Shown piece by piece: positions 2,104 to 56,143 of a stretch of 64,000 nucleotides of DNA. The notes below the pieces were generated by a model. That model worked only from the letters and a program-made list of their open reading frames with translations, did no database searches and was not told the origin of the DNA. This DNA is from a virus. Position 1 is the first letter of the stretch. The number at the start of each line of letters is the position of its first letter. The stretch is from the IMG/VR virus record IMGVR_UViG_3300031772_000009, positions 1 through 64,000 of that record; one strand, given 5' to 3'. A program made the position numbers and the translations under genes.

Positions 2104-2526
2104 ATGATAGACTTACCAGAGAAACCCCTAATGGCATATTTATCATATCCATTTAGTGCAAACCCACGAAAATTCACGAAGGAAGTTTGCAAATCTGCCA
2201 AGGAAATAATGTTTAAATACCCGAATATTTTCATCATTGTGCCACATACGTCTGTGGATTATACATTGTATGGTCCACCGAGGAAACGGATTCAAGACTA
2301 TGGACAAAGAGACCATACGATTGCCGCACAACTTGAATTTTCAATCCTCTGGAACATAGACATATTCATTCAAGGAGTCCCAGACAATCCTTTAGTTAGT
2401 ATGGGATGTATCTGGGAACACAGTTTCGTTCAATGGCTCAACTCATGGAGAAAGAAACAAATAATCATAATCATGCTTGAAGACATGTTGAAGGAAGTAA
2501 GAAAAGATGCGAAAATCAAAAGTTAA
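2104..2526 (+). CDS. nucleoside 2-deoxyribosyltransferase-like (DUF4406-type) protein
   Basis: 140 aa. The N-terminal strand reads AYLSYPFSANP, followed by IIVPHTSVDY and a C-terminal SMGCIWEHSF segment, the arrangement of the small Rossmann-like NDT/DUF4406 fold in which a late Glu is catalytic. Such proteins act on nucleoside or nucleotide glycosidic bonds. A second member of the superfamily lies at 14416. The start directly follows the preceding stop. Confidence 0.6.
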   Translation: MIDLPEKPLMAYLSYPFSANPRKFTKEVCKSAKEIMFKYPNIFIIVPHTSVDYTLYGPPRKRIQDYGQRDHTIAAQLEFSILWNIDIFIQGVPDNPLVSMGCIWEHSFVQWLNSWRKKQIIIIMLEDMLKEVRKDAKIKS

Positions 2527-2737
2527 CGAGACGCATAAACGTAGTCTTTTCAAGGGAATTTCAATGCGTATTCTTGAAATCACTATAGACACAGTGTTGC
2601 TTTCCGTGTTGAATTTTGGAGTTGAAAAGGCATTAGTCGTTTCTATAGGAATTGAGGGACTCTGTTTCGTCATTCATTACATAAACGAAAGACTATGGAA
2701 TAAAGTAAATTGGGGGCGAAGAATAGAATATGAATAA
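2507..2737 (+). CDS. DUF2061-like small membrane protein
   Basis: 76 aa. A basic N-terminus precedes two hydrophobic stretches (about residues 22-37 and 40-54) and ends with HYINERLWNKV, which resembles the HERxW ending of DUF2061 membrane proteins. Function of that family is unknown. It overlaps its upstream neighbour by 20 bases. Confidence 0.6.
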   Translation: MRKSKVNETHKRSLFKGISMRILEITIDTVLLSVLNFGVEKALVVSIGIEGLCFVIHYINERLWNKVNWGRRIEYE

Positions 2738-2975
2738 CGGAAAGAAAGTTAGTGTAAAAAAGAAACTAAAAGCAAAGCAAATGTGGGTGGAACAGTTCTT
2801 CTATAAACTTGACGAATCAGAAAAACGAATAGACAGTTTAGAAAAACGAGTATCAGACATTTCAGTTACAGTTGCGTATGATATTGCAGAGTTGCGAAAA
2901 CGAATTGAATTAATAGAGGAATTTTTGGGTGGAGTAGAAAGCATTAAAAAGGTATTGAAAGATGCAAAAAGCTGA
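2730..2975 (+). CDS. coiled-coil protein
   Basis: 81 aa. After a Lys-rich N-terminus, heptad-like spacing in segments such as KRIDSLEKRVSDIS and ELRKRIELIEEFL indicates a coiled coil over most of the length. It overlaps both neighbours. No enzyme motif is seen; a structural or oligomerisation role is a guess. Confidence 0.6.
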   Translation: MNNGKKVSVKKKLKAKQMWVEQFFYKLDESEKRIDSLEKRVSDISVTVAYDIAELRKRIELIEEFLGGVESIKKVLKDAKS

Positions 2976-3294
2976 AGACCCAAACATTAGAAAAATCGTG
3001 GTTGGCAAAGACTGTTACAGTAAATACTGTGCCAAATGTTCATACTGTGTAAAAGCAGAATGGAGTCCCAAAGAAGGATTCAAGTATGGTTGGATAGACG
3101 TTTACTGTTGCATGAATAGTGGAAAATGTAACCCACAATCAATGTGTCCAAATGGAATAGGATGGGATATGTGTCTGGGAGAAGCATTCGAATTCGACCC
3201 AGAAAAAATATGGAAACCAATGTATATCCCCGTTCTGGGAGAAGGACTGGTTGCCGTTTCAATTCCTAAAAAGGAATGGTGGAAAGACGAATGA
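2962..3294 (+). CDS. cysteine-rich protein, unknown function
   Basis: 110 aa with about ten cysteines between residues 18 and 70 (CYSKYCAKCSYC, then CC, C, C and C). The density suggests zinc binding or disulfides; no signal peptide is visible, which favours zinc. Its TGA overlaps the ATG of the SemiSWEET-like gene. Confidence 0.55.
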   Translation: MQKAEDPNIRKIVVGKDCYSKYCAKCSYCVKAEWSPKEGFKYGWIDVYCCMNSGKCNPQSMCPNGIGWDMCLGEAFEFDPEKIWKPMYIPVLGEGLVAVSIPKKEWWKDE

Positions 3295-3542
3295 TAGAAT
3301 TGTTAAGTAACATTGGAAACACACTGGCTTTCATTGCTAGTATTCCACAGATAATAACGGCTTATAGAAATCGAAGAAACCTTAAAGGATTGTCTTCTTT
3401 GATGCTTTTCATTTGTTTCATGGCTTACCTCTTCTTCATAATGGTAGCATATTTGAATGGGGCATATGTAGGCGTTGTCTTATGTTTAATTAGTGAAGTG
3501 TTCCACGTTCTACAATTTTACTGGAAGAGAAGATATAGATGA
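3291..3542 (+). CDS. SemiSWEET-like PQ-loop sugar transporter
   Basis: 83 aa from the ATG in an ATGA overlap (an upstream in-frame ATG at 3276 would add five residues). It has three hydrophobic segments and a Pro-Gln pair at residues 19-20 in helix 1 (FIASIPQI), followed by the basic loop YRNRRNLKGLS. Length and topology match bacterial SemiSWEETs, which dimerise to carry sugars across a membrane. Placement between glycosyltransferases suggests it moves a sugar for the glycan pathway. Confidence 0.75.
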   Translation: MIELLSNIGNTLAFIASIPQIITAYRNRRNLKGLSSLMLFICFMAYLFFIMVAYLNGAYVGVVLCLISEVFHVLQFYWKRRYR

Positions 3543-4696
3543 TAGACAAAATATTGTGGTGGTGTCCCACTCCTTGGGAAAATGACGGTGGAGCAATCGT
3601 TACCTTTTACCAAATGAGAGAAATGAATCAACAATGTCCAGAAATCACAAACCATTTAATACCTAAAGTGTGGAGTCAAGCAGACCAAACTGAACTTCCA
3701 TTCTGTAAATTTCATAAGGCAACAACGAAATATTTTGGTCAAGTACCCAATGAAATCCCCAAAATTATGAAGAGAGAACAAATCAAACTGTTGGTTTTGT
3801 TCCATATTCCATGGGAATATTTTCCAATAATAGACAAGGTTCATAAGATGGGTGGCAAAGTGATTAATTGGCAAACCATCCACTGGACTAATGACGTGTT
3901 GTTTCTAAGCGATAAACTTAAAGATTTTGATTGGTGGATTCCGCCAACACAATACGCAATGGAAACTTTAGTAGGGGTAGGTGGACTAAGTAGGGGTAGG
4001 ATGACTGTTATTCCACATGGAGTTGACACTTCATATTTCTTTCCGCATGACACAAGTGAACTTCGAAACAATTTAGGAATTAAACCAGACCAGAAAATGA
4101 TATTGTTTGTTGGAAGAGTACAACTTACCAAAGGAATAATTCCAATGATGCTCACAGCAAGAAAACTCTGTGATAATTTTGACTGTCACATAGTCTTTAA
4201 AGCTGGAGTTCATGATGGAGTCTGGAAAGCAAAAGAAATGGCTCATCTACTGCATAAAATGACAAAGTGGGATTCAAGAATACATTTCCTTACAAATTGG
4301 ACTACGCCAAGTTTCATGGAAGAATTAACAGCCGCATGTGACATTCTAGTTTGTCCAAGCGGTCACGAAGGATTCAGTCTTCCACCGTTAGAAGCTATGG
4401 CTTGCAATAAACCAGTAGCAATAACAGACATTCCAGTTCATAGAGAACTTCTAGGCGGCAAAAACGGCATATGTGGCTTATTGATGCCGCCCTTCATGTC
4501 AACAGAATACGTTAACGATGTCCAAATGGTCACTATTCCTTCAGACGATATGATTTATGGCTCAATAAAATATTTGTTGGAGAATCCAGACGAAGCAAAG
4601 GTAATGGGAGAGGAAGGTTTAAAAAGAGCAAAGCAATATTATGATTTACGTGAAGTGTGTAAAAAATGGTTCTCTCTTCTCAATAATTTCATCTAA
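3539..4696 (+). CDS. glycosyltransferase, GT4-like
   Basis: 385 aa GT-B protein. It has VIPHGVDTSYFFP, the strand ILFVGRVQLTKG opening the second Rossmann domain, and the donor-site segment EGFSLPPLEAMACNKP. Length is typical for GT4. It starts in an ATGA overlap with the transporter gene and is the last gene before a promoter and an HNH gene. Confidence 0.9.
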   Translation: MIDKILWWCPTPWENDGGAIVTFYQMREMNQQCPEITNHLIPKVWSQADQTELPFCKFHKATTKYFGQVPNEIPKIMKREQIKLLVLFHIPWEYFPIIDKVHKMGGKVINWQTIHWTNDVLFLSDKLKDFDWWIPPTQYAMETLVGVGGLSRGRMTVIPHGVDTSYFFPHDTSELRNNLGIKPDQKMILFVGRVQLTKGIIPMMLTARKLCDNFDCHIVFKAGVHDGVWKAKEMAHLLHKMTKWDSRIHFLTNWTTPSFMEELTAACDILVCPSGHEGFSLPPLEAMACNKPVAITDIPVHRELLGGKNGICGLLMPPFMSTEYVNDVQMVTIPSDDMIYGSIKYLLENPDEAKVMGEEGLKRAKQYYDLREVCKKWFSLLNNFI

Positions 4697-4710
4697 ATTT
4701 TATAGAAAGA

Positions 4711-4742
4711 TTTAAATATGAGATAAGTTATATATTTCATAG
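4711..4742 (+). promoter_or_regulatory. archaeal TATA promoter before the HNH gene
   Basis: TTTAAATA at 4711-4718 lies about 22-25 bases before the expected transcript start at 4739-4743, which falls at the beginning of the HNH frame and suggests a leaderless mRNA. Confidence 0.6.
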
Positions 4743-5287
4743 TTGGTGTATTAACCATTAAAAAAATCTGTGTAAATTGTGGAAAGGAATATGATTGTGG
4801 AAGGAAAAGACAAAGAGGAGCGAGTGCTAAAACATGTTCTTTTCAATGTTTTCAAGAATGGCAAAAGAAATATAGGAAAAATTACTATGAAAAAAATAAA
4901 GAATTAATTCTAAAAAAACAGTTAGTATATATTCATAAAAAGAGACAAGAAAATCCAGAATGGTGGAAAGAATATCTTCTAAAATCAGCAATTAAATTGA
5001 AGATGTGGAACGAAAAACATCCAAATTATATTAATGAAAGAAATGCTAAAAGAAAAAAGGAACTAATTGATTTGCTTGGTGGAAAATGCCAAAAATGTGG
5101 ATATGATAAATGTACTGCGGCTTTAGATTTTCATCATGTAAATTCAAACGATAAAGAAAAAAAATACAAGGTAAAGAAATCAAGAGAATGGAGATTATAT
5201 AAAAAAGAAATAGAACAAAACATAAAAGAAGGAAAAGTTATTCTTTTATGTTCTAATTGTCATAGGGAGATACACCATGATAATTAA
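4739..5287 (+). CDS. HNH endonuclease with N-terminal zinc finger
   Basis: The C-terminus has the HNH core: GGKCQKCGYDKC, ALDFHHVN, LLCSNCHREIHH. The frame is open back to 4727 and the upstream part is clearly coding, with an N-terminal finger (ICVNCGKEYDCG, then TCSFQC) and a long basic helix. No ATG, GTG or TTG occurs in frame before the TTG at 4991 and ATG at 4997, which would remove the finger. Position 4739 is an in-frame ATA at the predicted transcript start and is given as the boundary. Closest relatives here are the HNH genes at 21857 and 32072. Confidence 0.7.
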   Translation: MVGVLTIKKICVNCGKEYDCGRKRQRGASAKTCSFQCFQEWQKKYRKNYYEKNKELILKKQLVYIHKKRQENPEWWKEYLLKSAIKLKMWNEKHPNYINERNAKRKKELIDLLGGKCQKCGYDKCTAALDFHHVNSNDKEKKYKVKKSREWRLYKKEIEQNIKEGKVILLCSNCHREIHHDN

Positions 5288-5317
5288 ATGGTTTGACTTG
5301 TTTGGGAAGTTGGAAGA

Positions 5318-5674
5318 ATGAAAAAGATAAAAGTTCCACATGTAATAGTCTTGATTAATCCGTCCAAACCAGAACCTCAACAAGATTTAAATGGTGAAAT
5401 CAAACTTTTCACTAATCAATTGGAAGAGTTTGCCCATTTAAATTTTTCAAAAGTTAAGAAGGAAAGAATGGTATATATAAGTGGGGTTAATGTTGACGGA
5501 GAATATCGTAAACGGGGATATGGAAGATTATTAGTTTCAATTTTTGAGTCTCTAGTTAAATCTTGGAGTTTAAAACAGATTTATCTAATCGTGGCTGATG
5601 ATGACGCTGAAAAGTTCTGGAAAAAAATGGGATATGTTGAAGAAGAAGATTACATGGTGAAAAAGATTAAATGA
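5318..5674 (+). CDS. GNAT-family N-acetyltransferase
   Basis: 118 aa. The acetyl-CoA motif A is visible as GEYRKRGYGRLL (about residues 62-74), preceded by a beta strand and followed by KFWKKMGYVEE, the usual last helix and strand. It transfers an acetyl group to an unknown amine; an amino sugar would fit the surrounding glycan genes. Confidence 0.82.
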   Translation: MKKIKVPHVIVLINPSKPEPQQDLNGEIKLFTNQLEEFAHLNFSKVKKERMVYISGVNVDGEYRKRGYGRLLVSIFESLVKSWSLKQIYLIVADDDAEKFWKKMGYVEEEDYMVKKIK

Positions 5675-6159
5675 AACCGAAAACCGAAAGTGAAAAGACG
5701 AACAGACTCATTCTTAAGCGACTTACTAGCATAGAATTTAGACTTGGAACACTGGAGAATACTTTGCGAATATTAGAAAGTGGAATTGATAAACCCAAAC
5801 GATATTTATTATTCGGTGAATGTGTGCCGCCACCATCAGTATGTAAAGACATATATGGAACAATGATTGGAAACTCAAGTTATGAGGGGTTCTTAGGAAG
5901 ACTTGCTGAATATTACAAATGTGAACGTATGAAATTGTTAGTAAATCCAGAAAGAAATAGAGAGGACACTATAGCAATGTATTATCCATATGAAAAGATA
6001 GCATATTCAAAAGATGCTACGGTTGCCCAAAGTACGGTTCTGCATGAGTGGTTTCATCATATGGTAAATCTTGGAGTCGTATATCTATCAGAAAAGGAAA
6101 AGAAAGAAGAGGAAGTTTACGCTAGAAATTTTACAGAAATGTTTTTGGGGAGAATATGA
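5671..6159 (+). CDS. zinc metallopeptidase-like protein (HEWFH)
   Basis: 162 aa. Residues 125-129 read HEWFH inside VLHEWFHHMV, the HExxH zinc site, and a run of Glu in EEEVYARNF about 18-20 residues later offers a gluzincin-type third ligand. The N-terminal 40 residues look coiled-coil. No signal peptide. Starts in an ATGA overlap. It resembles minimal gluzincins; substrate unknown. Confidence 0.7.
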   Translation: MKPKTESEKTNRLILKRLTSIEFRLGTLENTLRILESGIDKPKRYLLFGECVPPPSVCKDIYGTMIGNSSYEGFLGRLAEYYKCERMKLLVNPERNREDTIAMYYPYEKIAYSKDATVAQSTVLHEWFHHMVNLGVVYLSEKEKKEEEVYARNFTEMFLGRI

Positions 6160-6528
6160 ATGGATAAGACTAACGTTTCGTGTTCCAGACCATGTTCAGA
6201 CGGTAAACCATGTTTGCCCGATGAAGACAAATGCCCTTTGAAATACGAGATAGACTTGGATAATTTGGTTTTTGAAATCAGAAAGTCCACTCCTAAACAT
6301 TATCGTAGAGCCAAAGTCTGGGTTAAGAGGGACAAGGCAAGAATAATAATAACTGACGAAGAACGTTGGTTTGGATGGTTGGATATGTGTGTTATGTTGA
6401 ATCATGAGTTTCTACACTGGATACTTTGTTGTATTACTGGACAGAAGTGGGGACTCAAGAAATATGATGAATTCTTGGATAGTTTAGGTTTATACAATCA
6501 TGATGTCTTGATGGAGATATGGTTATGA
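6160..6528 (+). CDS. mini HExxH protein (HEFLH), zinc-finger N-terminus
   Basis: 122 aa. Four cysteines lie in the first 25 residues (CSRPC...C...C). Residues 82-86 are HEFLH in the helix LNHEFLHWIL, with Asp at the end of GLKKYD 17 residues after the second His, the spacing shared by a family through this window. It follows directly on the other HExxH gene. Peptidase activity is inferred only from the motif. Confidence 0.65.
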   Translation: MDKTNVSCSRPCSDGKPCLPDEDKCPLKYEIDLDNLVFEIRKSTPKHYRRAKVWVKRDKARIIITDEERWFGWLDMCVMLNHEFLHWILCCITGQKWGLKKYDEFLDSLGLYNHDVLMEIWL

Positions 6529-6728
6529 CAATTTGGCTAATCTTGGCTTTCTTGTTAGGTTTTTTCGTTCAGAGAATCATTATTGCTAGACATAAAGGAT
6601 TTATGAAGTTGGGTTCAAGTTGGAAATTGAACAATAACAAAATCTATAAATGGTTGCACAGAATCTTTTGTGAATGTTGTCCCAGAAGATTATACTGTGA
6701 TGAATACAAAAAGAGGATTAAGAAATGA
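6525..6728 (+). CDS. small single-pass membrane protein, Cys-rich tail
   Basis: 67 aa from the ATG in an ATGA overlap. A hydrophobic segment (WLILAFLLGFFVQRIII) is followed by a basic domain ending with CECCPRRLYC. It probably anchors a cytoplasmic zinc or disulfide knuckle at the membrane. Unknown function. Confidence 0.55.
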   Translation: MTIWLILAFLLGFFVQRIIIARHKGFMKLGSSWKLNNNKIYKWLHRIFCECCPRRLYCDEYKKRIKK

Positions 6729-7543
6729 AAATTGGCTGGATTGCAGACAACTTCTATCCAGATGTTAAACGTGGAGCAGAAATAGAAGATTACCTTCTAA
6801 TTCAAGAAGGACTCAGACGTGGACATAAAATAATCAAAATGGGAAAATTGAACAAAAACGTTGATGGGTTCATAGTGGCAAACTTCCTAGACAACATTAA
6901 TATTGGAGAATTGTTTGCTTATCTGTCACGTAAACCATACATCAAAATTGAACATGACTTGCGTGGACCAATGATTCCGTTTTATAAGATGCTTGCTAGT
7001 GAAGCGTTACTTGTTGTTTATCATAGTCCAATCCAACAAAGACTTATAGAGAAACATGGAGTGGTATATAAATGTTTCCTTCATCCAATGTGTGTTCCAA
7101 CAGAATTTAAGGATTTGAGATTGAAACGTAAACCAGAAACGGAAGTTCTCTATGTGGGAGACTATGCAAAGGAGAAAGGCTATCAAGAAATGGTAGAATG
7201 GCTTGAACAACGTCCAGAATACACAATTTGGCATTATGGTAGCGGATTTCCAAAACATCATCCAAGAATGAAAGAGATGGAGTCTATAGAACATGAAGAC
7301 ATGCCAAAGATTTACAACAAGTTTCAAACCTTAATCTTTCTTCCAGCCTTTCAACAAGCGTGTAGCCGAGTAATAGCCGAAGCATACCTCTGCAAAGTTC
7401 CAAACATAATCACTAATGGAAAAGACGGATTCACAAGTTACGGTTGGACAATGAACGATTACGATAAAGTGAGAGAAAGACTTATTAATGGTCACAAGAT
7501 ATTATGGGATAAAATTGAAGGGGAATTCGGCAATGCGTCATGA
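6725..7543 (+). CDS. glycosyltransferase, compact GT-B type
   Basis: 272 aa, shorter than most GT4 enzymes. The second half has VLYVGDYAKEKGYQEM, YGSGFPKHHP, and a donor-site segment ACSRVIAEAYLCKVPN. The N-terminal acceptor domain is reduced. Starts in an ATGA overlap. Confidence 0.8.
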   Translation: MKIGWIADNFYPDVKRGAEIEDYLLIQEGLRRGHKIIKMGKLNKNVDGFIVANFLDNINIGELFAYLSRKPYIKIEHDLRGPMIPFYKMLASEALLVVYHSPIQQRLIEKHGVVYKCFLHPMCVPTEFKDLRLKRKPETEVLYVGDYAKEKGYQEMVEWLEQRPEYTIWHYGSGFPKHHPRMKEMESIEHEDMPKIYNKFQTLIFLPAFQQACSRVIAEAYLCKVPNIITNGKDGFTSYGWTMNDYDKVRERLINGHKILWDKIEGEFGNAS

Positions 7544-7904
7544 ACATTATAAGATGAAAAGAAAGACATTACAAGAAGTTTTGGCGAATCCATACTTCAT
7601 CAAATTCATAGAAGACTTGAAAAATTGTTCAACTGTGAAAGAAATCTACATTGTTGGTTCAATGGTTAGGAAAGGAGTAAGTAACAAAGACGTTGATATA
7701 AAAGTTGTAAGGATTGAACAGAATATGGCTGGAGACAAAGAAATCTACAATTTGGTTGATTCCTTTCCACATTTGTCTCCACATAAAAAGAAGTTAACTG
7801 CAATAAAGTATTTCATGATTGGAGATATTCTAATCAATGTTTTCTGGAGTGAAATGAGATTTGATAAACCATATACTCTTTTATGGAGAAATGAAAGTGC
7901 CTAA
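7533..7904 (+). CDS. MNT-type nucleotidyltransferase
   Basis: 123 aa from the ATG overlapping the previous stop (an upstream in-frame ATG at 7488 is less likely). GSMVRKGVSNKDVDI at residues 42-56 is the polymerase-beta-like nucleotidyltransferase signature, Gly-Ser followed by two metal-binding Asp (53 and 55). It transfers a nucleotide to a small molecule or protein. Among glycan genes it could activate a sugar, but MNT proteins also serve in toxin-antitoxin pairs; no HEPN partner is seen. Confidence 0.7.
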   Translation: MRHEHYKMKRKTLQEVLANPYFIKFIEDLKNCSTVKEIYIVGSMVRKGVSNKDVDIKVVRIEQNMAGDKEIYNLVDSFPHLSPHKKKLTAIKYFMIGDILINVFWSEMRFDKPYTLLWRNESA

Positions 7905-8976
7905 AGTTAAAAAGTGTAGAAAATGTGGAAGAAAAATATCCTTTGCTGATGATAGAGATTACTGTGTTCCATGTGGCAAAATAGTAGTAGAAGAACAAAA
8001 ATTGCAAACACAACAGAACGAAAGAGAAAAACTGAATATGTATATACGACAGAAGGAAGAAGAACTTAGAAAGGAAGGTTTGGCTACAAGTAGAGGGTTT
8101 CTAAACGTTTTAGTAATTATTGATGCGTATGGATGGGCTTATGATTTCATCATGAGGGGGATTCAAAAATATAGTAAACATAATATTAGAATTGTGGCTA
8201 TTGCAGACATTACTAAAGAAGACGTGGAGTGGCTTGACGTTTTGTATTGTATGCATGGTTGCATATTGAATGATATATGCAATCATATTGGTCTTTTCAA
8301 AGACGTGAAAAGAAAATGTATTGGAATATTTAGTGAAGTGTATGACGAGGACATTATCAAGATGGTTGGATGGAATGTTGGAGTTGCAAACCAGAAAATC
8401 TATGATGATATAATGCGAAAAACTCCACGTATCCCATTGAAAGGATTATATGTTACAAGGGCTGGCGTTGACACTGAAATTTTCAAACCGATGGATAGAC
8501 CAGATAATAGATTCATTGTTGGTTGGGTTGGTTGGGCTGACCGTCCACTTAAACGTTACAGATTACTTAAAGACTTAAAGTTTCCATTTATAGTTCAAAC
8601 TAAATGGGGATGGAAATTCTTCGTTAAAGACCGTTCAAGAGATGAAATGATTGATTTCTACAGTAGAATAGACTGTTTGATAAACACAAGTGACTCGGAA
8701 GCGTTTCCTCTTCCAGTTCTTGAGGCGGCGGCAACTAGACTTCCAGTAGTGGCTACAAGGACGAGTGGAGTACCAGAATTCATAGATTCAGAATGGCTTG
8801 TTCCGATTAATCCAGAACATGTAGCCATGAGAGAAATGAATTCTAAACTTCAACTGTTAAAAGATAATTTATCGTTGCGAAAACAAGTTGGAGAACAAAA
8901 CTTGCAGAAAGTTTTAAATAGGTGGGCGTGGAAGTATATGGTAAAAGAGTTCGATAAAATGTTTGAAGAGTCATGA
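7891..8976 (+). CDS. glycosyltransferase, GT4-like with N-terminal zinc ribbon
   Basis: 361 aa from the ATG overlapping the previous gene by 14 bases. The first 35 residues form a zinc ribbon (CRKCGRK, CVPCGK), then a charged coiled coil to about residue 60, then a GT-B domain with TRAGVDTEIFKP and a donor site SEAFPLPVLEAAATRLP. The added ribbon is unusual for this family and may mediate assembly. Confidence 0.82.
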   Translation: MKVPKVKKCRKCGRKISFADDRDYCVPCGKIVVEEQKLQTQQNEREKLNMYIRQKEEELRKEGLATSRGFLNVLVIIDAYGWAYDFIMRGIQKYSKHNIRIVAIADITKEDVEWLDVLYCMHGCILNDICNHIGLFKDVKRKCIGIFSEVYDEDIIKMVGWNVGVANQKIYDDIMRKTPRIPLKGLYVTRAGVDTEIFKPMDRPDNRFIVGWVGWADRPLKRYRLLKDLKFPFIVQTKWGWKFFVKDRSRDEMIDFYSRIDCLINTSDSEAFPLPVLEAAATRLPVVATRTSGVPEFIDSEWLVPINPEHVAMREMNSKLQLLKDNLSLRKQVGEQNLQKVLNRWAWKYMVKEFDKMFEES

Positions 8977-9764
8977 TTATGAACAGCAAAATAGGAAAGA
9001 ATTGCAAAATAAGCGATAAAGCTAGGATTAATGTTTCAGAATACTTTGAAATTGGAGATAGAAGTATCATTCGTGATAATACAATAATCGAAGGTAGACA
9101 TATTGAAATAGGTAAAGAAGCATGGATAGACGAATATGCTCATATTGGGGGCGGAAGTTGTTTTGACTATCAATCCTTCCTAAAAGCTGGAGATTTCTTA
9201 CACATGGGCAAGTTCTCTCATGTAAATACGGCTAGAAGAGTTATAATAGGTAACGAATGTGGCATTGGTATAAACACTAAAATCTTTACTCATGGTGCAT
9301 ACCTTTCAGCCTATGAGGGGTTTCCGATACAGTTTGCCAATGTTGAAATTGGAGACAGAGTTTGGTTGCCTAATGCTTGGGTGAATCCCAATGTGAAAAT
9401 TGGAAACGATGTTGTTGTCGCCGCCATGTCTTTAGTTAATCGAGATTTACCAAGCGGTTGTTTGGCTGGTGGAATACCAGTAAAAATATTAAAGGAAAAT
9501 AGGTATCCTAGAAAGTTGTCTCAACAAGAGGAAGAACAATTGGTAATGAACATTGAGGATGATGTTCGAATGAAATTAAAGTTTGAAGAAAACAGAATTT
9601 ATCTTGAACATCCTAACACTACACAAGTTACGATGTTTGGTCTGAAAGAAAGAATAATTGAAGGAGTTGGAAATGAAAGAAGTGAAATTGTTAGAAATCA
9701 ATTGCGGAGATGTGGTATTAGGTTTAGATATTATATGGAAAATGGGAAGTATCTACCATGGTAG
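8973..9764 (+). CDS. left-handed beta-helix (hexapeptide) acyltransferase
   Basis: 263 aa. Hexapeptide repeats such as ISDKARINVSEYFEIGD, IIEGRHIEIGKEAWID and VWLPNAWVNPNVKIGND run through residues 5-170, with GIPVKILKENRYP closing the helix as in sugar O- or N-acetyltransferases. A further 90 residues extend the C-terminus. It should acylate a sugar hydroxyl or amine. Starts in an ATGA overlap. Confidence 0.85.
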   Translation: MIMNSKIGKNCKISDKARINVSEYFEIGDRSIIRDNTIIEGRHIEIGKEAWIDEYAHIGGGSCFDYQSFLKAGDFLHMGKFSHVNTARRVIIGNECGIGINTKIFTHGAYLSAYEGFPIQFANVEIGDRVWLPNAWVNPNVKIGNDVVVAAMSLVNRDLPSGCLAGGIPVKILKENRYPRKLSQQEEEQLVMNIEDDVRMKLKFEENRIYLEHPNTTQVTMFGLKERIIEGVGNERSEIVRNQLRRCGIRFRYYMENGKYLPW

Positions 9765-10375
9765 TATTAGCAATAGGAGCACATCCAGACGATATTGAAT
9801 TTGGTTGTTTTGGAACGTTGGCACGACTATCAAAAGTTCATGACATACACATTATTATCTTAACTCTGGGTGAATTGGCTGGTTCAAGCATTGTGAGAAT
9901 GGAAGAATGTAGACAGAGTGCAAAGTTGATTAATGCCACTCTACATTTCTTGGATTATGAAGAAGGAGACATATCTGTTAATGCTAGTAGTATTTTGAAA
10001 CTCAGAAATCACATTCGGTCAATTAATCCAAACATGATATTTACACTGTATCCTCAAGACACACATCAAGACCACAGAAATACTTCACAAATTACGGTTT
10101 CCGCTTGCCGTGATTGGAAACCAGATAGACAGAATATTGATGAAATACTATTTTACGAAGTAGTTAGCACAACGAATTTTCGTCCTAACATGTTTTATGA
10201 CATTACTGACTTTTTCCCTTTGAAAAAATCGGCTTTATCCATTCACTCATCCCAAAATGCAAAGATTTGCATGGATTTGAAAGTCTTGGAAGCATTGGCT
10301 CTCGTACATGCCAACAACTGTGGTTATAAAGACCGCTTATTCGAAGCGTTCTATCTATACAAAGCGGTTAAATGA
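9758..10375 (+). CDS. PIG-L/LmbE family N-deacetylase
   Basis: 205 aa. The zinc site AHPDD is at residues 8-12, with DTHQDHRNT further on, both hallmarks of zinc-dependent deacetylases acting on N-acetylglucosaminyl conjugates. Length is near the family norm. It overlaps the acyltransferase gene, so acetyl addition and removal are encoded side by side. Confidence 0.88.
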   Translation: MVVLAIGAHPDDIEFGCFGTLARLSKVHDIHIIILTLGELAGSSIVRMEECRQSAKLINATLHFLDYEEGDISVNASSILKLRNHIRSINPNMIFTLYPQDTHQDHRNTSQITVSACRDWKPDRQNIDEILFYEVVSTTNFRPNMFYDITDFFPLKKSALSIHSSQNAKICMDLKVLEALALVHANNCGYKDRLFEAFYLYKAVK

Positions 10376-11460
10376 GGGACTACATAATGGAAAGTGAGAA
10401 AGAGAAATATCGCCAAGCCTTTCAAAACTTCATTGGTAAGCAAGAAATAAATGATTTGATTTTTCCGAGAATATATTGGTTTGACGATGCGTTGTTAGAC
10501 CAATATGAAGTTGGTTTTCCAATACTCAAAAAATACAATTTAAAACATGGAGTAATTCTAGCAGTTCCAACCAGATATGTGGGCAAAACTTTTCCGTGGA
10601 CAGACCCATATGTAGATTTGCCAATGATGAATATTAGTCAAATAAAAGAAATGATGGAGTATGGTGTTTTAATTGCAAGTCACACTGTCACACATTCATG
10701 TTTTAAAGGCATGACTAAAGAAAGATTGGTTTGGGAATTAACTGAAAGCAAAAAATGGATAGAAACAAATTTGGGAGTCACTCCTAAAATTCTTGTTGTT
10801 CCCTTCAATGATTATTCTCAAGAACAAAAAGACATTATTCTTGAACATTATTCACATGTTAGACCATCCACAATCCCATCCATATCTGGTTATTACAACC
10901 TTCACCATAACTTTAGAGACGATAAAGAAAAGAAGTTGTCAAAAAGGTGGGGAAAAGAATTTTTTAAACTGTTAACTCCAGCTTTTGAAGACAAGATAAA
11001 AATGGAACGTTCAGTACGATTTTCATTGGGATTTTATGATTTGAAAACTGAGTTTGACAAGACCAAAATCAAGATTCCAGAAATCTCTCTTCCAGAAGGA
11101 TATAGAGTTTGTTTTGCTATTCCAGATAAGGATGGGAAACTTTGCGAGAAAGACAAACAAATATGGCATTCACTACATAGTAACGAAATGTTCGTCAAGA
11201 TTGTTCATCCAGAAAACGCCGAAGGAGTAATATTTGCTTATTATAAAGATGAGCCGATTGGATGTTTCGTTGTAAACACTTATGGAGACACAGTTGAATT
11301 TGAACATGCTATAGTAGTTGAATTTCATAGAAGGAAGGGAATATACAAAGCAATGATGGTTCTTGGTCTCCATTATGCTGTGCAAAAGCAAGAAATTAAA
11401 TGGATAATAGCGATTCCACTTCAAACGTTAGAATCTTTTTGGGACAAAGTAAGAGGATGA
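10372..11460 (+). CDS. polysaccharide deacetylase-like (CE4) domain fused to GNAT-like domain
   Basis: 362 aa. The N-terminal half resembles NodB/CE4 deacetylases: FDDALLD at 37-43, in place of the usual TFDDG, and the metal motif SHTVTH at 103-108, then VVPFND. From about residue 245 a second domain ends with EFHRRKGIYKAMM, which resembles the CoA-binding turn of GNAT acetyltransferases. A protein pairing a deacetylase with an acetyltransferase is unusual. The GNAT call is the weaker part. Confidence 0.65.
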   Translation: MRDYIMESEKEKYRQAFQNFIGKQEINDLIFPRIYWFDDALLDQYEVGFPILKKYNLKHGVILAVPTRYVGKTFPWTDPYVDLPMMNISQIKEMMEYGVLIASHTVTHSCFKGMTKERLVWELTESKKWIETNLGVTPKILVVPFNDYSQEQKDIILEHYSHVRPSTIPSISGYYNLHHNFRDDKEKKLSKRWGKEFFKLLTPAFEDKIKMERSVRFSLGFYDLKTEFDKTKIKIPEISLPEGYRVCFAIPDKDGKLCEKDKQIWHSLHSNEMFVKIVHPENAEGVIFAYYKDEPIGCFVVNTYGDTVEFEHAIVVEFHRRKGIYKAMMVLGLHYAVQKQEIKWIIAIPLQTLESFWDKVRG

Positions 11461-11464
11461 AAAA

Positions 11465-12403
11465 ATGAAAATTGTTTGGTTGGGAACTTTCAGAGAATGT
11501 CCATCTTGGAGATATTTCAGAAGAGACTTGAAAAATTACGTGGAACTAAAATGTTATGGAGAATCTCCTAACCCAAACCGTCTAAATGAAATGGGTGGGG
11601 ACACTTCTCATTTTTATAAAACGAACATAAATGACTGGATTGAAGGTTACGATGTTAAGGAAATAGAAAGGTTAGAGAATCCAGATTGGATATTTATCTG
11701 TGCTTACAGTAGTAAAATGAATTACTTAAACTTGGATAAAGTGCAAACTCCAAAAGCCATTTGGATAGGCGACCCGATTCAAGACAAAGTTAGAATTTTT
11801 CCAAAAATAAAGGAATGGAAAATAGATAAAGTGTTCTGTCATTATTGGACGGGAACAATTGAACCTTACATGGAAGAATATAAAGCCGATTATTATCATC
11901 TTCCACACTCAGTTGATACTAAAGTTTTCTATCCTACTGGGAAAGAAAGGTCTTTAGATTTGGCTTTTGCTGGATGTATTAACTCCTATTGGTATCCTCT
12001 TCGAGACAAATACATTAGACACTTAAATAATCTACGGAAACATAAAATACAAATCAGTGAACATTTTGGCACTATAGAAGAATACGTTGATTTGATAAAT
12101 CGAGCAAGATTCTTTCTTGCAGATGGTGGACTATATAGATATGCCGTTTGTAAATATTTTGAAATCATGGCTTGTCAAACCGTACCTATCGGTGCAGAAC
12201 CACTAGATGCAGACATTCTTCACATTAAATCAAATTTCAATCTAGCTCCCATGCGGGGAGACCATATCATTGAAGATTTTATTTATTGGATTGAAAACGA
12301 GAAAGAACGTGAATCTTTGGCTAAAGCGGCATATGAGACAGTCATGAAATATCACACTAACAAAATAAGAATAAAACAACTTTTGGAAATGTTGAAGAAA
12401 TGA
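11465..12403 (+). CDS. CgeB-like glycosyltransferase
   Basis: 312 aa. HSVDTKVFYPTG precedes a second Rossmann domain with LDLAFAGCIN and YAVCKYFEIMACQTVPIG, the layout of the DUF3880/CgeB group of GT-B proteins. It starts 4 bases after the previous stop with its own AUG context and ends the first half of the glycan cassette. Confidence 0.78.
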   Translation: MKIVWLGTFRECPSWRYFRRDLKNYVELKCYGESPNPNRLNEMGGDTSHFYKTNINDWIEGYDVKEIERLENPDWIFICAYSSKMNYLNLDKVQTPKAIWIGDPIQDKVRIFPKIKEWKIDKVFCHYWTGTIEPYMEEYKADYYHLPHSVDTKVFYPTGKERSLDLAFAGCINSYWYPLRDKYIRHLNNLRKHKIQISEHFGTIEEYVDLINRARFFLADGGLYRYAVCKYFEIMACQTVPIGAEPLDADILHIKSNFNLAPMRGDHIIEDFIYWIENEKERESLAKAAYETVMKYHTNKIRIKQLLEMLKK

Positions 12404-12405
12404 GG

Positions 12406-12452
12406 AAACCTTTATTAGTCTCTTTGAGGTCTTTATCTAAAGAGGTTATAAA
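12406..12452 (+). promoter_or_regulatory. promoter for the epimerase gene
   Basis: AAACCTTTATTAG at 12406-12418, then about 34 bases to the ATG. The same AAACCTTTATTAG core reappears at 57003. The spacer holds AGAGGTTATAAA just before the start. Confidence 0.5.
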
Positions 12453-13364
12453 ATGAAGATATTGGTAACTGGTGGTTCGGGATTCATAGGAAGCCACTTA
12501 GTAGATTTGCTTTTAGATAAAGGTTATCAAGTTAGTGTTGTAGATGGACATCCAGTGAAAAACAAAAATGCTGAATGGATTGATGGAGATTTGAGATGGA
12601 TAGGCGACTGTGACAAATCCGTAGAAGGAAAAGACGTAGTATTCCATCTAGCCGCTAGAATCAGCATTGACGAATCAATTGACCGTGTTTGGCACTATTT
12701 CAATGATAACTATCTGTCAACCATAAATATTTGTATGTCTTGTAAGAAATTCAACGTAAAACGTTTAGTTGACATTTCCTCTTGTGAAGTATATGGCAAT
12801 GTTCCTAAAGGCAAAGCAGACGAATCTAACCCTTGCAACCCAACATCGCCTTACGCCGCAAGCAAATATGCGGCTGAACGTAGTGCAATAGCATTTTGCA
12901 GTTCATTCAACATTCCAATAACTGTTATCCGTCCATTCAACGTCTTCGGAGAAAGACAAAAAGCTTTCCGTGGCGGTTCAGTGATTCCCACATTCATACA
13001 ATTAGCGTTACATGACAAACCTTTAATCATACATGGTGACGGCAACCAAATCAGAGACTATCTATATGTTAAAGACACTGTTGGTTTGTTATCACTTACG
13101 TTAGAAAGAGAGTTGGGAAACACTGAGATTCTAAACGTTGCTTCTGGAGATGGACGAACAATAAAAGACATAGCAGAAAAAATCATTGAATATACGAAAA
13201 GCAATTCTAAACTTGAATTCATTGATGACCCCAGAGGAAAAGCACAAATGTTGAGGAGTGTTGGAAATTCAGACAGAGCTAGGACGTTGTTAGGATGGAG
13301 ACCCATTTATGACTTTGATTCGGCTCTGAAAAAAACAATTGAGTTCTATAAAAAAACCGAGTGA
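12453..13364 (+). CDS. NAD-dependent nucleotide-sugar epimerase/dehydratase (extended SDR)
   Basis: 303 aa. The NAD site GGSGFIGSH is at residues 7-15; the catalytic set is Ser-109/110 with Tyr-134 and Lys-138 in SPYAASKYA. Late segments VIRPFNVFGERQ and GDGNQIRDYLYVKD are typical of UDP-glucose 4-epimerase-like enzymes. It probably makes the activated sugar used by the neighbouring glycosyltransferases. Confidence 0.92.
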   Translation: MKILVTGGSGFIGSHLVDLLLDKGYQVSVVDGHPVKNKNAEWIDGDLRWIGDCDKSVEGKDVVFHLAARISIDESIDRVWHYFNDNYLSTINICMSCKKFNVKRLVDISSCEVYGNVPKGKADESNPCNPTSPYAASKYAAERSAIAFCSSFNIPITVIRPFNVFGERQKAFRGGSVIPTFIQLALHDKPLIIHGDGNQIRDYLYVKDTVGLLSLTLERELGNTEILNVASGDGRTIKDIAEKIIEYTKSNSKLEFIDDPRGKAQMLRSVGNSDRARTLLGWRPIYDFDSALKKTIEFYKKTE

Positions 13365-13557: not shown

Positions 13558-13915
13558 AGATAAAAGAATGGAACTTAGACTGTGTAAGGGACCGAAAGAC
13601 CCCAACTTGTATTCTTGTAGACATGAATGGGGAGAAGTGAAAGAGGAAGGAGCAAAGGACAATCAGACTTACGCTAAATGTAAACATTGTGGTTTAGTCT
13701 GTCCAATTCCTAAAGGCGGAGAATACCCACCAGAATGTATAGAACATAGATTAAACAAAGTTCCCGAAATAACTAAAAAGAAAGATAATAGATGTCCTAA
13801 ATGCGGTCTTCTACCAGATTTATGCATGTGTGAACACGAAGATAAACTGAAACTGGTAAACGCTAAAGACTTTAATGACCCAAGAAGTGAAGGGTGTGGA
13901 GAGTGTGAAAAGTAA
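13547..13915 (+). CDS. zinc-ribbon protein with aIF1-like zinc knuckle
   Basis: 122 aa from the ATG overlapping the previous stop. A first site lies in YAKCKHCGLVCP, a second in RCPKCGLLPDLCMCE. The second looks like the N-terminal zinc knuckle of archaeal initiation factor aIF1, but no SUI1 domain follows, so it is not aIF1. Function unknown; it lies just upstream of an eS30 gene. Confidence 0.6.
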   Translation: MESKDKRMELRLCKGPKDPNLYSCRHEWGEVKEEGAKDNQTYAKCKHCGLVCPIPKGGEYPPECIEHRLNKVPEITKKKDNRCPKCGLLPDLCMCEHEDKLKLVNAKDFNDPRSEGCGECEK

Positions 13916-14196
13916 TGCCATATATTAAAAAAGCTTTAAGAGAACCAATAGATGAAAAATTAGACCTGTTAATAGGACGACTGAATGAAATGCTTACCTA
14001 TATAGATGGGAAAGACTTAGCCGCATGTCTAACTTACATAGTTTTCAAACTCATTCGTAGATACTATGAAAATGGTAAATGGTATGACAAGATGGACGCT
14101 GAGAAAGTTTGTGCATCAGCAATAGACGAATTCAAAAGACGATTCCTTCATCCATATGAAGAGATGAAAATTGCAGAAAATGGAGATGTTTATTAA
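13915..14196 (+). CDS. conserved-looking phage-type protein (DUF6899-like)
   Basis: 93 aa starting MPYIKKALREPID and containing GKDLAACLTYIVFKLIRRYY. This N-terminus and the following helices resemble small tailed-virus proteins grouped as DUF6899; I am moderately sure. Single-base overlaps on both sides bind it to its neighbours. Confidence 0.5.
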   Translation: MPYIKKALREPIDEKLDLLIGRLNEMLTYIDGKDLAACLTYIVFKLIRRYYENGKWYDKMDAEKVCASAIDEFKRRFLHPYEEMKIAENGDVY

Positions 14197-14414
14197 TGCC
14201 AAGAGGAAATGTAGACATGTCTGAGAAAACAAAAAGACATAAGGTATCTGGACATGGAAGTGTCTCTAAGGCTGGAAAAGTTAGGAATCAAACTCCCAAA
14301 GTTCCTAAAAGTGTAAGTCATTCTAAACGTAGTTGCCCCCGCCTCAAGAACAAAAAGAAATATTATAACCGAATGATTCTAAAGCGAAAGTGTGGTCAAA
14401 ACTGGGTGAAATGA
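14196..14414 (+). CDS. rps30e: ribosomal protein eS30 homologue
   Basis: 72 aa, strongly basic. Residues 20-36 read HGSVSKAGKVRNQTPKV, the hallmark of eS30 (archaeal form HGSxxKAGKVRxQTPK), and the end has CPRLKNKKKYYNRM and GQNWV, again as in archaeal eS30. In ribosomes eS30 sits on the small subunit near the A site. An extra 17 residues precede the core; an internal ATG at 14217 would shorten this to 10. Overlaps the upstream gene by 1 base. A viral copy could replace or compete with host eS30; that is inference. Confidence 0.9.
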   Translation: MPRGNVDMSEKTKRHKVSGHGSVSKAGKVRNQTPKVPKSVSHSKRSCPRLKNKKKYYNRMILKRKCGQNWVK

Positions 14415-14415
14415 T

Positions 14416-14847
14416 ATGTTCAAGATGTATTATGCATCAGCAGTAGATTGTAGTGTAGATTATGGTAAAGCTCAATTAAGACTTTTTAAGGAGTTATTCA
14501 AGAAGTATCCACAGATAGAAGTATGTGGTGCTGGAATAGGAGAATCACCAATAATAAGTCTTGACAGTAGCAAGACTCTGAAAAAGACTATAGTGGCTTA
14601 TGACCTAAGAAAACTTAGAGAATGTGATATACTATTAGTGGTTACGGATTTAGAAACTTATTGTGCTGGAACACACATGGAACTTGAATATGCTAGAAAC
14701 TTGGGACTATTGACTATAGTATTATGCGTTCATAAAAATGGCACTTGTAAATACGGTCTCAAGAATATTTTCATAGAAACGTTAGCAGATAAGGTAATCC
14801 ATTCTATCGAAGAATTAGAAGAAATACTTGAGGAGATAACGAAATAA
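14416..14847 (+). CDS. nucleoside 2-deoxyribosyltransferase-like protein
   Basis: 143 aa. The signature is DLRKLRECDILLVV followed by CAGTHMELEYARNLGL, matching the substrate-binding Asp and catalytic Glu of the NDT superfamily. The N-terminus MYYASAVD is the first strand with its loop. Together with the next gene it points to nucleotide-pool control. The 1-base overlap shows co-transcription. Confidence 0.75.
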   Translation: MFKMYYASAVDCSVDYGKAQLRLFKELFKKYPQIEVCGAGIGESPIISLDSSKTLKKTIVAYDLRKLRECDILLVVTDLETYCAGTHMELEYARNLGLLTIVLCVHKNGTCKYGLKNIFIETLADKVIHSIEELEEILEEITK

Positions 14848-15330: not shown

Positions 15331-15351
15331 ATATTATAATAAGTGACCATT

Positions 15352-17607
15352 ATGGACGAAAGTAGAAGAGAAAAAGGTAGAAAAGCAATAGAAAATAGAA
15401 GAATACGTGATGAAAACCGAGTAGACGCTCAAGTAAAATTTGTTGATGACTTTCAAAAGTTTATAGAGACCCAGAAAAAGAAGACTGGAATACCAGAAGA
15501 GGAACTCATAAACGAAGTCTTGTCAACCCATGTTTCAATGGTGGAGTTTGACGAGACAACTGGAAAGGCAAGCCTAGTTTTTGACGCTTGGAAAGGCGTG
15601 GTGGTTGGAGAAGAAACAAAAGTTAGCCAAGCCACTCTGAAAGACTTTCGTGACTTGAGAGAAAACTTTGCTCCAGTAAGTGCTGGAATAGAATGGCATA
15701 GAGACTTCACATCGGGTGGCGGATTTCTTGTTCAGATAGACGACCCAACAGACAAGAACCAAAATACTATGCGAGAAGAAATCAATCTGCTTAACCGAAA
15801 CGTTTATCAAGACCAATACGTGAAGGGACTCGACAACATTCTCGACATAGAAATAGATATTGCTTTGACTGACGGCTGTGCGGCGGCTGAAATAGTCTAT
15901 ACTAAAGAAGTCGCATTTGAAGATTATATAGACGAAATAGAAGAAGTAATGTTGGATGATGGGAAGAAAGTAAAAGTTTTAAAGCCTAAAGAAATGACGA
16001 GTGAATTATGGAAAGACCTCGGCGGAATTACCAGACTAAAAATCATTGAGGATTCATACACCCGTCTAGTTCCGTATCGCCATCCGAAAAGTGGGGAAAT
16101 ACTTTATTGGACTCTGGATGAGAAAGGTGGAAAGGACAATCAAGGTTTATCATATGAAGACATTGTGAGTAAGGAAAAGAAAGCCAATAAACCAATCATA
16201 AAGTTTCATCCTTGGGAAATCCTTTGGTTGTCATGGAATCAACGTGGAACAAACCTTAAAGGCATGAGCATGATTCAATCAGTCTACAAGATTGCCAAGA
16301 TGGTGCAAGAAATACAGACTTCAGTTGGAAAAGGTTTCAACAGATGGGCTAACAAGAAATACTTCTTCGTGTGTGGAAGTGAACGGAGACAATGGAACAA
16401 AGTTTACAGAACCGAATTCTTGAAAGCAATGGAGAAAATGATAAAGAACAACTGGGTTGGAATTCCAGTTCCAGCAGAATTCGAAATTAAAGAGATTGGT
16501 GGAGAACAATCAGTCTTTGATGGAAAGAATATATTAGACCACTTGATTGGAATGATTGCGGCTGGAATGCAGTATCCAAGAGAGTTCCTTGAGGTTGGAC
16601 GTACACAAGCAAGCGACAAGGCTTGGTTGGCATGGACAGTCCGTTATGGACGAAGCCAATTACAGATACGCCGAGCAATAGAACATCAACTTTGGGAGAG
16701 ACATTTATGGTGCAAGTTCGGAATGACTAAAAAGAAAAGCGTGAAGGGAGTCGAAAAAGAAAAGCAAGAAGACATTCCAATTTACGTTCCGAAACTTCAA
16801 TGGAAAGCGGAAGGTCAATGGTTGAAGGACGCAAAGATAAAGTTGCTTACTGGACTGTTGAATGTGGCTAACCCGATAGATTACCCGTTGAAGATGCCCG
16901 TCCAGAAGGAAATGGGAGCAACGATTGGCATTGGAGAAATAGACTGGAAAGACATAGAGGATTTGTTTGATACTCAAAACAAGATTAAGATTGCAAATGC
17001 AAAAATGGAACAGATGAAAGCGGAAGCGAAACTTGGCGAAATGGAAAAGATGAGTCAAGAAGAACTGATAAAGTTAGTTACGCCAGCACCAACTACTCCA
17101 CAGCCACAGACTTCAGAAGAGAAACTTCAAGAGCAAGAGAGGAAACGTACTGAAGCTGGAGTTTCAAGAACAACTAAAGAGACTGGAACACAGACAAAGA
17201 AGGGACAAGCTAAAGAGATGGGTGGAACAAGATTGGCTGAAACAGTTGAACAGTTAGAATTGCCACAAGACATACTTGACGGAATCAAGAAACTTGTGAA
17301 TGCTAGGTTACGTAAACAAGAAATGGAAAATGAGACAAGTGAAATAGTATTGGAGAACGCTAAAAAGATGAGTGAAGTGGCAAAAGTGGAATCTGAATCC
17401 AGTCAAAAAAAGACAGAGTTGACAGAGTTAGAATTGGAAGCCATAAAAGAGAAAGCAAAAACTGAAAAGGAATTGGCTGAGATGGAAAAAGAAAATACTA
17501 AAAAGAAAAGAGAATTAACAGAAATAGAGTTGGAAGACGCTAAAAAGAAGAGGGAACAACGAAAAGAACTTGATGAGGAAATCAAAAAGGTGAAGAAGAA
17601 ACAATGA
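15352..17607 (+). CDS. portal protein with long coiled-coil tail
   Basis: 751 aa from ATG (an in-frame GTG at 15343 could add three residues). Residues 90-470 have portal-type features: WHRDFTSGGGFLVQI, FHPWEILWLSWNQRG, then GMIAAGMQYPREFLEVGRTQAS and LQIRRAIEHQLW, as in DUF935/SPP1-like portals whose dodecamer forms the DNA entry channel. From about residue 545 the protein is a highly charged, low-complexity coiled coil (repeats like KKRELTEIELEDAKKKR), which makes it much longer than usual portals. Terminase genes expected beside it are absent. Confidence 0.82.
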   Translation: MDESRREKGRKAIENRRIRDENRVDAQVKFVDDFQKFIETQKKKTGIPEEELINEVLSTHVSMVEFDETTGKASLVFDAWKGVVVGEETKVSQATLKDFRDLRENFAPVSAGIEWHRDFTSGGGFLVQIDDPTDKNQNTMREEINLLNRNVYQDQYVKGLDNILDIEIDIALTDGCAAAEIVYTKEVAFEDYIDEIEEVMLDDGKKVKVLKPKEMTSELWKDLGGITRLKIIEDSYTRLVPYRHPKSGEILYWTLDEKGGKDNQGLSYEDIVSKEKKANKPIIKFHPWEILWLSWNQRGTNLKGMSMIQSVYKIAKMVQEIQTSVGKGFNRWANKKYFFVCGSERRQWNKVYRTEFLKAMEKMIKNNWVGIPVPAEFEIKEIGGEQSVFDGKNILDHLIGMIAAGMQYPREFLEVGRTQASDKAWLAWTVRYGRSQLQIRRAIEHQLWERHLWCKFGMTKKKSVKGVEKEKQEDIPIYVPKLQWKAEGQWLKDAKIKLLTGLLNVANPIDYPLKMPVQKEMGATIGIGEIDWKDIEDLFDTQNKIKIANAKMEQMKAEAKLGEMEKMSQEELIKLVTPAPTTPQPQTSEEKLQEQERKRTEAGVSRTTKETGTQTKKGQAKEMGGTRLAETVEQLELPQDILDGIKKLVNARLRKQEMENETSEIVLENAKKMSEVAKVESESSQKKTELTELELEAIKEKAKTEKELAEMEKENTKKKRELTEIELEDAKKKREQRKELDEEIKKVKKKQ

Positions 17608-21856: not shown

Positions 21857-22414
21857 ATGTCTCAAGAAAATGAAAGATGTCATGAAAGACATAGAGAATA
21901 CTGTAGAAAATGGCGACAAACCCATAAAGAACAACTTAGAGAATATAACAAAAAATATAGAACCACTGAAAAATATAAGAAAAAACATAGAGAGTACTAT
22001 AAACATAATTCCAAAAAACATAATGAATATACTAAGAAATGGAGAGAACAAAACAAAGACCATGTTAAAGAATACACCAGAAAATACTATTTATTACATA
22101 AAAAAGAGAAGAATGTAGACCGCATGAATAGATTCCGAGAGTTAAAACAGAAATATGTTAACTTATTGGGTGGTAAATGTCAAATTTGCGGATATAATAA
22201 AGATAATGGAGCATTACACTTTCATCATTTAAATCCAGATGAGAAAGAAAGAACAAAGGAAGCTTTAAGAGTAGCTTTTGAGCCTAAAATAAGAAATGGA
22301 AGTATCCAGTTACTTTGTGCTAATTGTCATCAAGAAATACATGATGGATTCACGAATGAATTAAAGGAGACGGTTAAGAGACTAGGAATAGAAGACTGGT
22401 TCAAGAGAGAGTAG
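21857..22414 (+). CDS. HNH endonuclease
   Basis: 185 aa. A long basic, Lys/Tyr/His-rich N-terminal helix precedes the core GGKCQICGYNKD, ALHFHHLNPDEKE and LLCANCHQEIHD. The C-terminal 20 residues (ELKETVKRLGIEDWF) repeat the end of the upstream gene. It is more AT-rich than its neighbours and has its own promoter, as expected for a free-standing homing endonuclease. Confidence 0.82.
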   Translation: MSQENERCHERHREYCRKWRQTHKEQLREYNKKYRTTEKYKKKHREYYKHNSKKHNEYTKKWREQNKDHVKEYTRKYYLLHKKEKNVDRMNRFRELKQKYVNLLGGKCQICGYNKDNGALHFHHLNPDEKERTKEALRVAFEPKIRNGSIQLLCANCHQEIHDGFTNELKETVKRLGIEDWFKRE

Positions 22415-23939: not shown

Positions 23940-24112
23940 CTGTGCATTTAGGTTTAGACGACATATTGTTTGCTCTGATTTTCATAATCTTCAATGCTTT
24001 CTTGGTTTCGATAGTGGATGGTTTACTACTGAAGTTGTGCTTTGCTGGATGGACGCTTTCAGTATTAGCCTTTGCAACCTACATAATTATTACGAGAGAT
24101 GAAAATGATTAA
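23918..24112 (+). CDS. two-helix membrane protein
   Basis: 64 aa with two hydrophobic segments (about 10-30 and 36-57) and a charged C-terminus RDEND. No family recognised. Confidence 0.5.
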   Translation: MVKKGSITVHLGLDDILFALIFIIFNAFLVSIVDGLLLKLCFAGWTLSVLAFATYIIITRDEND

Positions 24113-24476
24113 GATAACGAGTGACTTAGGCGAATTTCGGGAGAGAGAACACTATCACGAATGGATTGAGCCTTGGACATTCGGAGTATATAAAGGCAAC
24201 ACGATATGGTATAGATACCGTCCTAAACCTTTAAGCGTTACACTCACGATACTACATGAAATCATACACTTGATTATTGATAAAAGTCTATCTGTAAACC
24301 ATGCAACTTTATGTCTGTCAACTTTATGTCTGTTCAGAGATTTCTTAGACGGAACATTAGACTTCATTAATGGAATCTTGCGTTACCGAGAATGGCGTGT
24401 CTCAATCCATGCAAATCTACAATATTACGTTAAAGCCAACTTTAGACACTGGTGGACTTGGGTGCGGTGCAAATGA
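24099..24476 (+). CDS. mini HExxH protein (HEIIH)
   Basis: 125 aa. Residues 53-57 are HEIIH in the helix TILHEIIHLIID. Unlike most members of the family in this window it lacks the Asp 16 residues later; His-68 or a later residue might serve as third ligand. A basic C-terminus follows. Overlaps both neighbours. Confidence 0.55.
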   Translation: MKMIKITSDLGEFREREHYHEWIEPWTFGVYKGNTIWYRYRPKPLSVTLTILHEIIHLIIDKSLSVNHATLCLSTLCLFRDFLDGTLDFINGILRYREWRVSIHANLQYYVKANFRHWWTWVRCK

Positions 24477-26177: not shown

Positions 26178-26342
26178 ATGAAAATGAAAGTCGTTAAAGT
26201 CCAAATCACGAAGTTGAGTGGAGTTAAAGATGTGTGGGCAATCAAAATCATCGGAGAAGTTGAGGGAGTAATGATGCCTATGGAGTCTCTGGAAGCCTCG
26301 TTCTATTCAGAAACCGAACCTAAAGTGGAAGTGATAAAATGA
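26178..26342 (+). CDS. small beta protein, unknown function
   Basis: 54 aa (MKMKVVKVQITKLSG start). The last residues, EPKVEVIK, are echoed by a micro-frame after the following HNH gene (KPKVEITK), so the HNH gene seems to have inserted at its 3' end. Confidence 0.55.
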   Translation: MKMKVVKVQITKLSGVKDVWAIKIIGEVEGVMMPMESLEASFYSETEPKVEVIK

Positions 26343-50489: not shown

Positions 50490-50493
50490 GAAT

Positions 50494-56001: not shown

Positions 56002-56143
56002 CATAGGTATCGGAATAATCGTCAAATGTCAACGATGTGGCAAGTTGGGCGATGACCGTGACATTTCAACCATATTATTTCCAGATGGAAGCGAGAAAAC
56101 TCTATGTGAAGAATGTTTCCAAAAGGAGACTAAACAGAAATGA
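55991..56143 (+). CDS. zinc-ribbon protein
   Basis: 50 aa. KCQRCGKLGDD and LCEECFQKE form a zinc ribbon. ATGA overlap with the HNH gene. Confidence 0.55.
   Translation: MKGNIGIGIIVKCQRCGKLGDDRDISTILFPDGSEKTLCEECFQKETKQK

Follow-up and report, generated by a model that had tools for sequence, protein, structure and literature searches.

Several viruses carry genes for ribosomal proteins. Haloarchaeal tailed viruses encode L21e (PMC8651126) and the Kunpengvirus of Bathyarchaeia encodes bL19 (PMC10848311), both proteins of the large subunit, and phages encode ribosomal proteins that include bS21 (PMC6375957). An eS30 coding sequence has also been listed in a virus genome, that of FBR murine sarcoma virus, where fau (FUBI-eS30) is an inverted cDNA that gives an untranslated antisense RNA (Mizuno et al. 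2019, PMC6375957). Here we describe an eS30 gene that lies in sense orientation within a run of genes of an archaeal tailed virus. Its product is a small-subunit protein of the decoding side and joins L21e and bL19, the two ribosomal proteins that we found described for archaeal viruses. Phage bS21 is likewise a virus-supplied small-subunit protein, but the phage families concerned are bacterial and their bS21 is not known to be extended N-terminally at the A site. A full-text literature search, in which subscription papers were thinly covered, revealed no archaeal or bacterial virus described with eS30. The preliminary description of this DNA, which knew of no described viral eS30, was too sweeping in view of the murine sarcoma virus entry, although the sequence there is antisense and untranslated.

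The window, that is, the whole stretch of 64,000 nucleotides analysed here, comprises bases 1–64000 of the 91,361-base IMG/VR record IMGVR_UViG_3300031772_000009. Three hallmarks, a large terminase (1.6e-21), a major head protein of HK97 type (2.8e-11) and tail proteins, identify the record as an archaeal tailed dsDNA virus (Caudoviricetes), which also encodes a UvsX/RadA-type recombinase. An IMG/VR search with its terminase and portal candidate gave no relatives, none of 201 bathyarchaeial genomes contained a relative of the terminase, and tblastn searches of the INPHARED phages with eS30, DUF6899 and the terminase found no match.

The preliminary description identified one short ORF of the window as eS30 and proposed a search against Pfam Ribosomal_S30 (PF04758). 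This search gave 48.3 bits (E=1.2e-12) against a cut-off of 27, and the best solved homologues are the archaeal eS30 chains 9fhl (1.4e-8) and 9e71 (1.3e-7), followed by eukaryotic eS30. In an alignment of 18 sequences, made up of the window copy, two other viral copies and fifteen cellular ones, the window eS30 retains all 15 invariant columns, including HGS and KAGKVRNQTPK. Cellular eS30 of TACK and Asgard archaea (PDB 9fhl) has the same core, HGSxxKAGKVRNQTPK, followed by a basic C-terminal part in which a single helix is predicted, and the versions from Bathyarchaeia are closest to the window copy. The ending GQNWV, which had been called archaeal, is indeed found as GQNWV(K) in many Bathyarchaeia. 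The protein has a pI of about 11, and a low-confidence AlphaFold2 model (pLDDT 67.5) places one helix at residues 48–61. With the NCBIfam equivalog model NF006817 the window eS30 scores 53 bits, below the cut-off of 75. This cut-off is an unfair test of membership outside Crenarchaeota, because cellular proteins miss it too: three of four bathyarchaeial eS30s tested reach 72.7–74.1 bits and both Asgard eS30s fall short (57.5 and 70.2 bits), while crenarchaeal ones pass with 104–105 bits. The shortfall is shared with cellular eS30s, and the match of the window protein is therefore real.

The eS30 gene is tightly packed between its neighbours (Table 1). It was said to lie inside a nucleotide-metabolism operon; the tightly packed run of viral genes is there, but only two of its members resemble nucleotide-metabolism genes. 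The upstream DUF6899 gene has a homologue in a second eS30-bearing contig (2.3e-16 with PF21840; 39% identity to the window gene). In the cellular contigs that we read, an Elp3-type gene is close to eS30, and this gene is missing beside the window eS30. The flanking genes thus bear out the viral linkage: eS30 lies in a viral gene run, on the same record as the terminase, HK97-type capsid and tail protein genes.

Table 1 Positions of eS30, its neighbours and motif-bearing ORFs in the window
Feature	Position	Strand	Evidence or remark
Hexapeptide acyltransferase and PIG-L deacetylase pair	8973..10375	+	PF00132, PF02585; host link
DUF6899 gene	13915..14196	+	PF21840, 1.6e-12; stop overlaps eS30 start by one base
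eS30 gene, 72 aa, ATG to TGA	14196..14414	+	PF04758, PDB matches, invariant core
N-terminal extension, residues 1–19 (or 8–19 from second ATG)	14196..14252	+	Precedes invariant HGS
Invariant eS30 core	14253..14300	+	HGSVSKAGKVRNQTPK
Nucleoside 2-deoxyribosyltransferase-like gene	14416..14847	+	PF05014, E=2.1e-5, under curated cut-off; begins one base past eS30 stop
dATP/dGTP diphosphohydrolase, common phage gene	14847..15296	+	PF18909, 8.6e-18; matches in 410 phage records
Portal protein candidate (viral head gene)	15343..17607	+	Weak match to phrog_30703 portal, E=0.0056; immediately follows the eS30 gene run
HExxH ORFs	5671-6159, 6160-6528, 24099-24476, 40037-40306, 40745-41059		
HExxH ORFs, continued	47386-47739, 49455-50165, 50169-50489, 50479-50799, 61326-61652(-)		
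HNH-like ORFs	4997-5287, 21857-22414, 26339-26740, 28492-28983, 32072-32593		
HNH-like ORFs, continued	36696-37328, 48343-48729, 56140-56448, 62344-62838(-)		Two more in record bases 64001-91361

Among 2.9 million IMG/VR contigs, eS30 was found in two further ones, a 133 kb contig (L002, IMGVR_UViG_3300009499_000295) and an 8.3 kb contig (L003). Because it is so rare, eS30 is no general requirement of viruses. All three eS30 contigs have large terminase matches, so that eS30 and terminase are encoded together each time and the protein is a virus-encoded ribosomal protein. The window virus and the L002 virus have about 20 further genes in common, among them those for capsid, terminase and DUF6899, and their AAA proteins are 39% identical. 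In L003, the eS30 gene lies directly 3′ of the major capsid gene, whose product matches the capsids of tailed viruses of haloarchaea, HCTV-1 among them, and its eS30 is divergent (30.9 bits), with a very long branch. Thus, eS30 recurs in related archaeal tailed viruses.

These contigs also bear on whether the window record joins host and virus sequence artificially, which the preliminary description named as grounds for rejecting its reading. The record does come from a metagenome assembly. However, the window eS30 overlaps a viral neighbour on one side and is a single base from the next gene on the other, the cellular neighbour is absent, and two independent, terminase-bearing viral contigs carry eS30 as well, so that a chimaera is very unlikely indeed.

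The positions of the viral copies invite a different idea, namely that a basic, largely unfolded protein such as eS30 serves the virus outside the ribosome, either by binding RNA or DNA or as a component of the virion, for example packaged with the genome. The capsid gene next to eS30 in L003, the portal candidate near it in the window and the high pI would suit this role, but the viral protein retains all ribosome-specific invariant residues, which goes beyond the needs of general nucleic-acid binding, and we regard the idea as improbable.

The L002 virus showed two further features. A viral Lon-like AAA protease at bases 77604–79781 of the window record (L004:13604–15781) is 48% identical to the L002 copy. 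In addition, nineteen predicted ORFs of L002, mostly at 13–28 kb and 49–51 kb, contain the motif [FYWHI]NP[ST]xR, which lies within the last 16 residues in 13 of them (mean of 0.085 after shuffling). Since the codons of the motif vary synonymously, it resembles a peptide tag common to the C-termini of these proteins and may be a signal for targeting.

To our knowledge, eS30 is restricted to TACK and Asgard archaea and eukaryotes, and the preliminary description took the gene to point to a TACK/Asgard-type host. In the phylogeny that it recommended, a tree of 91 sequences whose 56 columns are too few to tell how often eS30 was captured, the window and L002 eS30s pair (82/83) and the L003 copy, with its very long branch, has no stable position. 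The pair falls in a branch (92/76) that is mostly bathyarchaeial and also holds Odinarchaeota, Baldrarchaeota and one thaumarchaeal sequence, a weak placement given the 56 columns. The eS30 gene is present in 210 of 257 bathyarchaeial genomes. Window bases 8991–9981, within the acyltransferase and deacetylase pair, are 76% identical to the DNA of a bathyarchaeial genome over 991 bp with the same gene order, and another bathyarchaeial genome encodes a homologue of the capsid protein (33%, 4e-31); no similar match came from four archaeal genomes outside Bathyarchaeia, a small control. Because of this DNA match and the capsid homologue, the host appears to be a TACK archaeon and most likely a member of Bathyarchaeia, in line with the first part of the earlier suggestion. 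The 991-bp match belongs to a larger glycan-synthesis cluster (window 537–13364; glycosyltransferase, acyltransferase, PIG-L deacetylase and sugar epimerase) that is partly common to bathyarchaeial genomes. Two bathyarchaeial genomes, G244 and G245, have second eS30 copies, and no phage hallmark genes were recognisable by eye in the stretches that we read there.

Comparison of the 16 core codons between the window and L002 genes shows seven synonymous differences and one conservative nonsynonymous one (V/I); between the window and L003 genes, six are synonymous and two nonsynonymous. The codons have drifted while the protein sequence held, which indicates that the eS30 core is under selection at the protein level, as expected of a gene in use. 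This argues against a recently acquired host gene that is carried along without function. Such a passenger would not be surprising in that the gene is short and rare in viruses and that the window virus bears other host-like genes, but besides the conserved core with its many synonymous changes, eS30 occurs in three viral contigs, two of them from related viruses, and is packed tightly between other genes. We consider a functionless passenger about as improbable as a use outside the ribosome.

The window copy differs from its relatives at the N-terminus, where an extension of 10–17 residues had been noticed. The extension is real: 19 residues precede the invariant HGS or, from the only other start (the second ATG, Met8, at 14217), 12, compared with 2–4 in the cellular archaeal eS30 loci examined, which begin M-P-T/S-HGS or have a similarly short N-terminus. 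After Met8, the reading frame has no ATG, GTG or TTG before it reaches HGS, and the extension is therefore independent of the choice of start. A purine-rich stretch lies about 10 bases upstream of each ATG (GGAG at 14182 and GAGG at 14203). The extension has a net charge of +3 and no predicted structure in the low-confidence model. The window copy alone is extended; the L002 and L003 eS30s are not. Thus, it is a variant with an extended N-terminus in which HGS does not fall within the first few residues. A short N-terminus is common in cellular archaeal eS30 but does not define the family, because eukaryotic FUBI-eS30 precursors also bear N-terminal sequence. One cellular eS30 locus (L006) had seemed to share the extension, but this gene has an MPTHGS start, and the match upstream of it is out of frame and broken by a stop codon. 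Genomes G044 and G108 have long open frames ahead of eS30 that had suggested fusions, but there too the gene has the ordinary MPTHGS start.

In solved ribosomes, the end that is extended here faces the decoding centre. The eS30 of S. solfataricus is located in the mRNA entry channel with Pro2 contacting helix h44, and the authors suggested that binding of aIF1A may require a local change that moves the eS30 tail out of the way (PMC11698992). In mammals, the N-terminal histidine of eS30 enters the decoding site once cognate tRNA is bound (PMC5119991). The viral protein keeps this histidine and the core and is lengthened exactly at the A-site/h44 end. The most economical reading is that viral eS30 enters host 30S subunits and changes translation, and both tuning and blocking of translation would fit the sequence.

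Our preferred reading, to which we assign a probability of about 0.6, is that the protein is a working eS30, acquired from a bathyarchaeial host, which enters the 30S subunit during infection, and that its extended N-tail changes translation towards viral messages. We infer that a tailed archaeal virus captured the gene and that viral eS30 is made during infection. Newly built host 30S subunits would take it up at their shoulder, next to the mRNA entry channel, where it would replace host eS30 in part of the ribosomes. The longer basic N-tail of the window-virus protein would then be placed at h44 and the A site, where it could alter decoding, initiation (through access of aIF1A) or the choice of mRNA to the benefit of viral messages. 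That the virus goes as far as remodelling the host decoding centre through the tail in the A site, yielding virus-specialised ribosomes with altered decoding or initiation, is a tentative and rather doubtful proposal. Because two of the three viral copies lack the extension, it is not needed for a role common to them and could be drift.

The main rival to tuning is a dominant-negative effect, in which viral eS30 enters the 30S subunit, where its long N-tail obstructs late 30S maturation or the A site and thereby shuts down host translation. Non-cleavable N-terminal fusions to human eS30 do disturb 40S maturation and are absent from polysomes (PMC8354635), and it is this end that is extended in the viral protein. 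However, the virus itself depends on host ribosomes, FUBI is far larger than 16 basic residues, and the other two viral copies have no extension; we judge such a block unlikely, though less so than a role outside the ribosome or a passenger gene. As far as can be read from these comparisons, tuning of translation by viral eS30 in host 30S subunits is most likely and ranks above the A-site block. Viral eS30 bears on the open question of whether viruses build specialised ribosomes, and a viral protein that keeps the core and is lengthened only at the A-site end is a natural experiment on that part of the ribosome.

The window virus encodes further small proteins of note (Table 1). Nine other small zinc-ribbon or basic ORFs in the window and one in the rest of the record were compared with Pfam, and none was a ribosomal protein. 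Ten mostly small proteins contain an HExxH motif, compared with an average of 1.5 in shuffled sequences, and are putative zinc metallopeptidases; three of them were checked against Pfam and had no match. Finally, ORFs for free-standing HNH-like endonucleases, identified by a simple motif match, are numerous, and several of them have similar basic N-terminal repeats.
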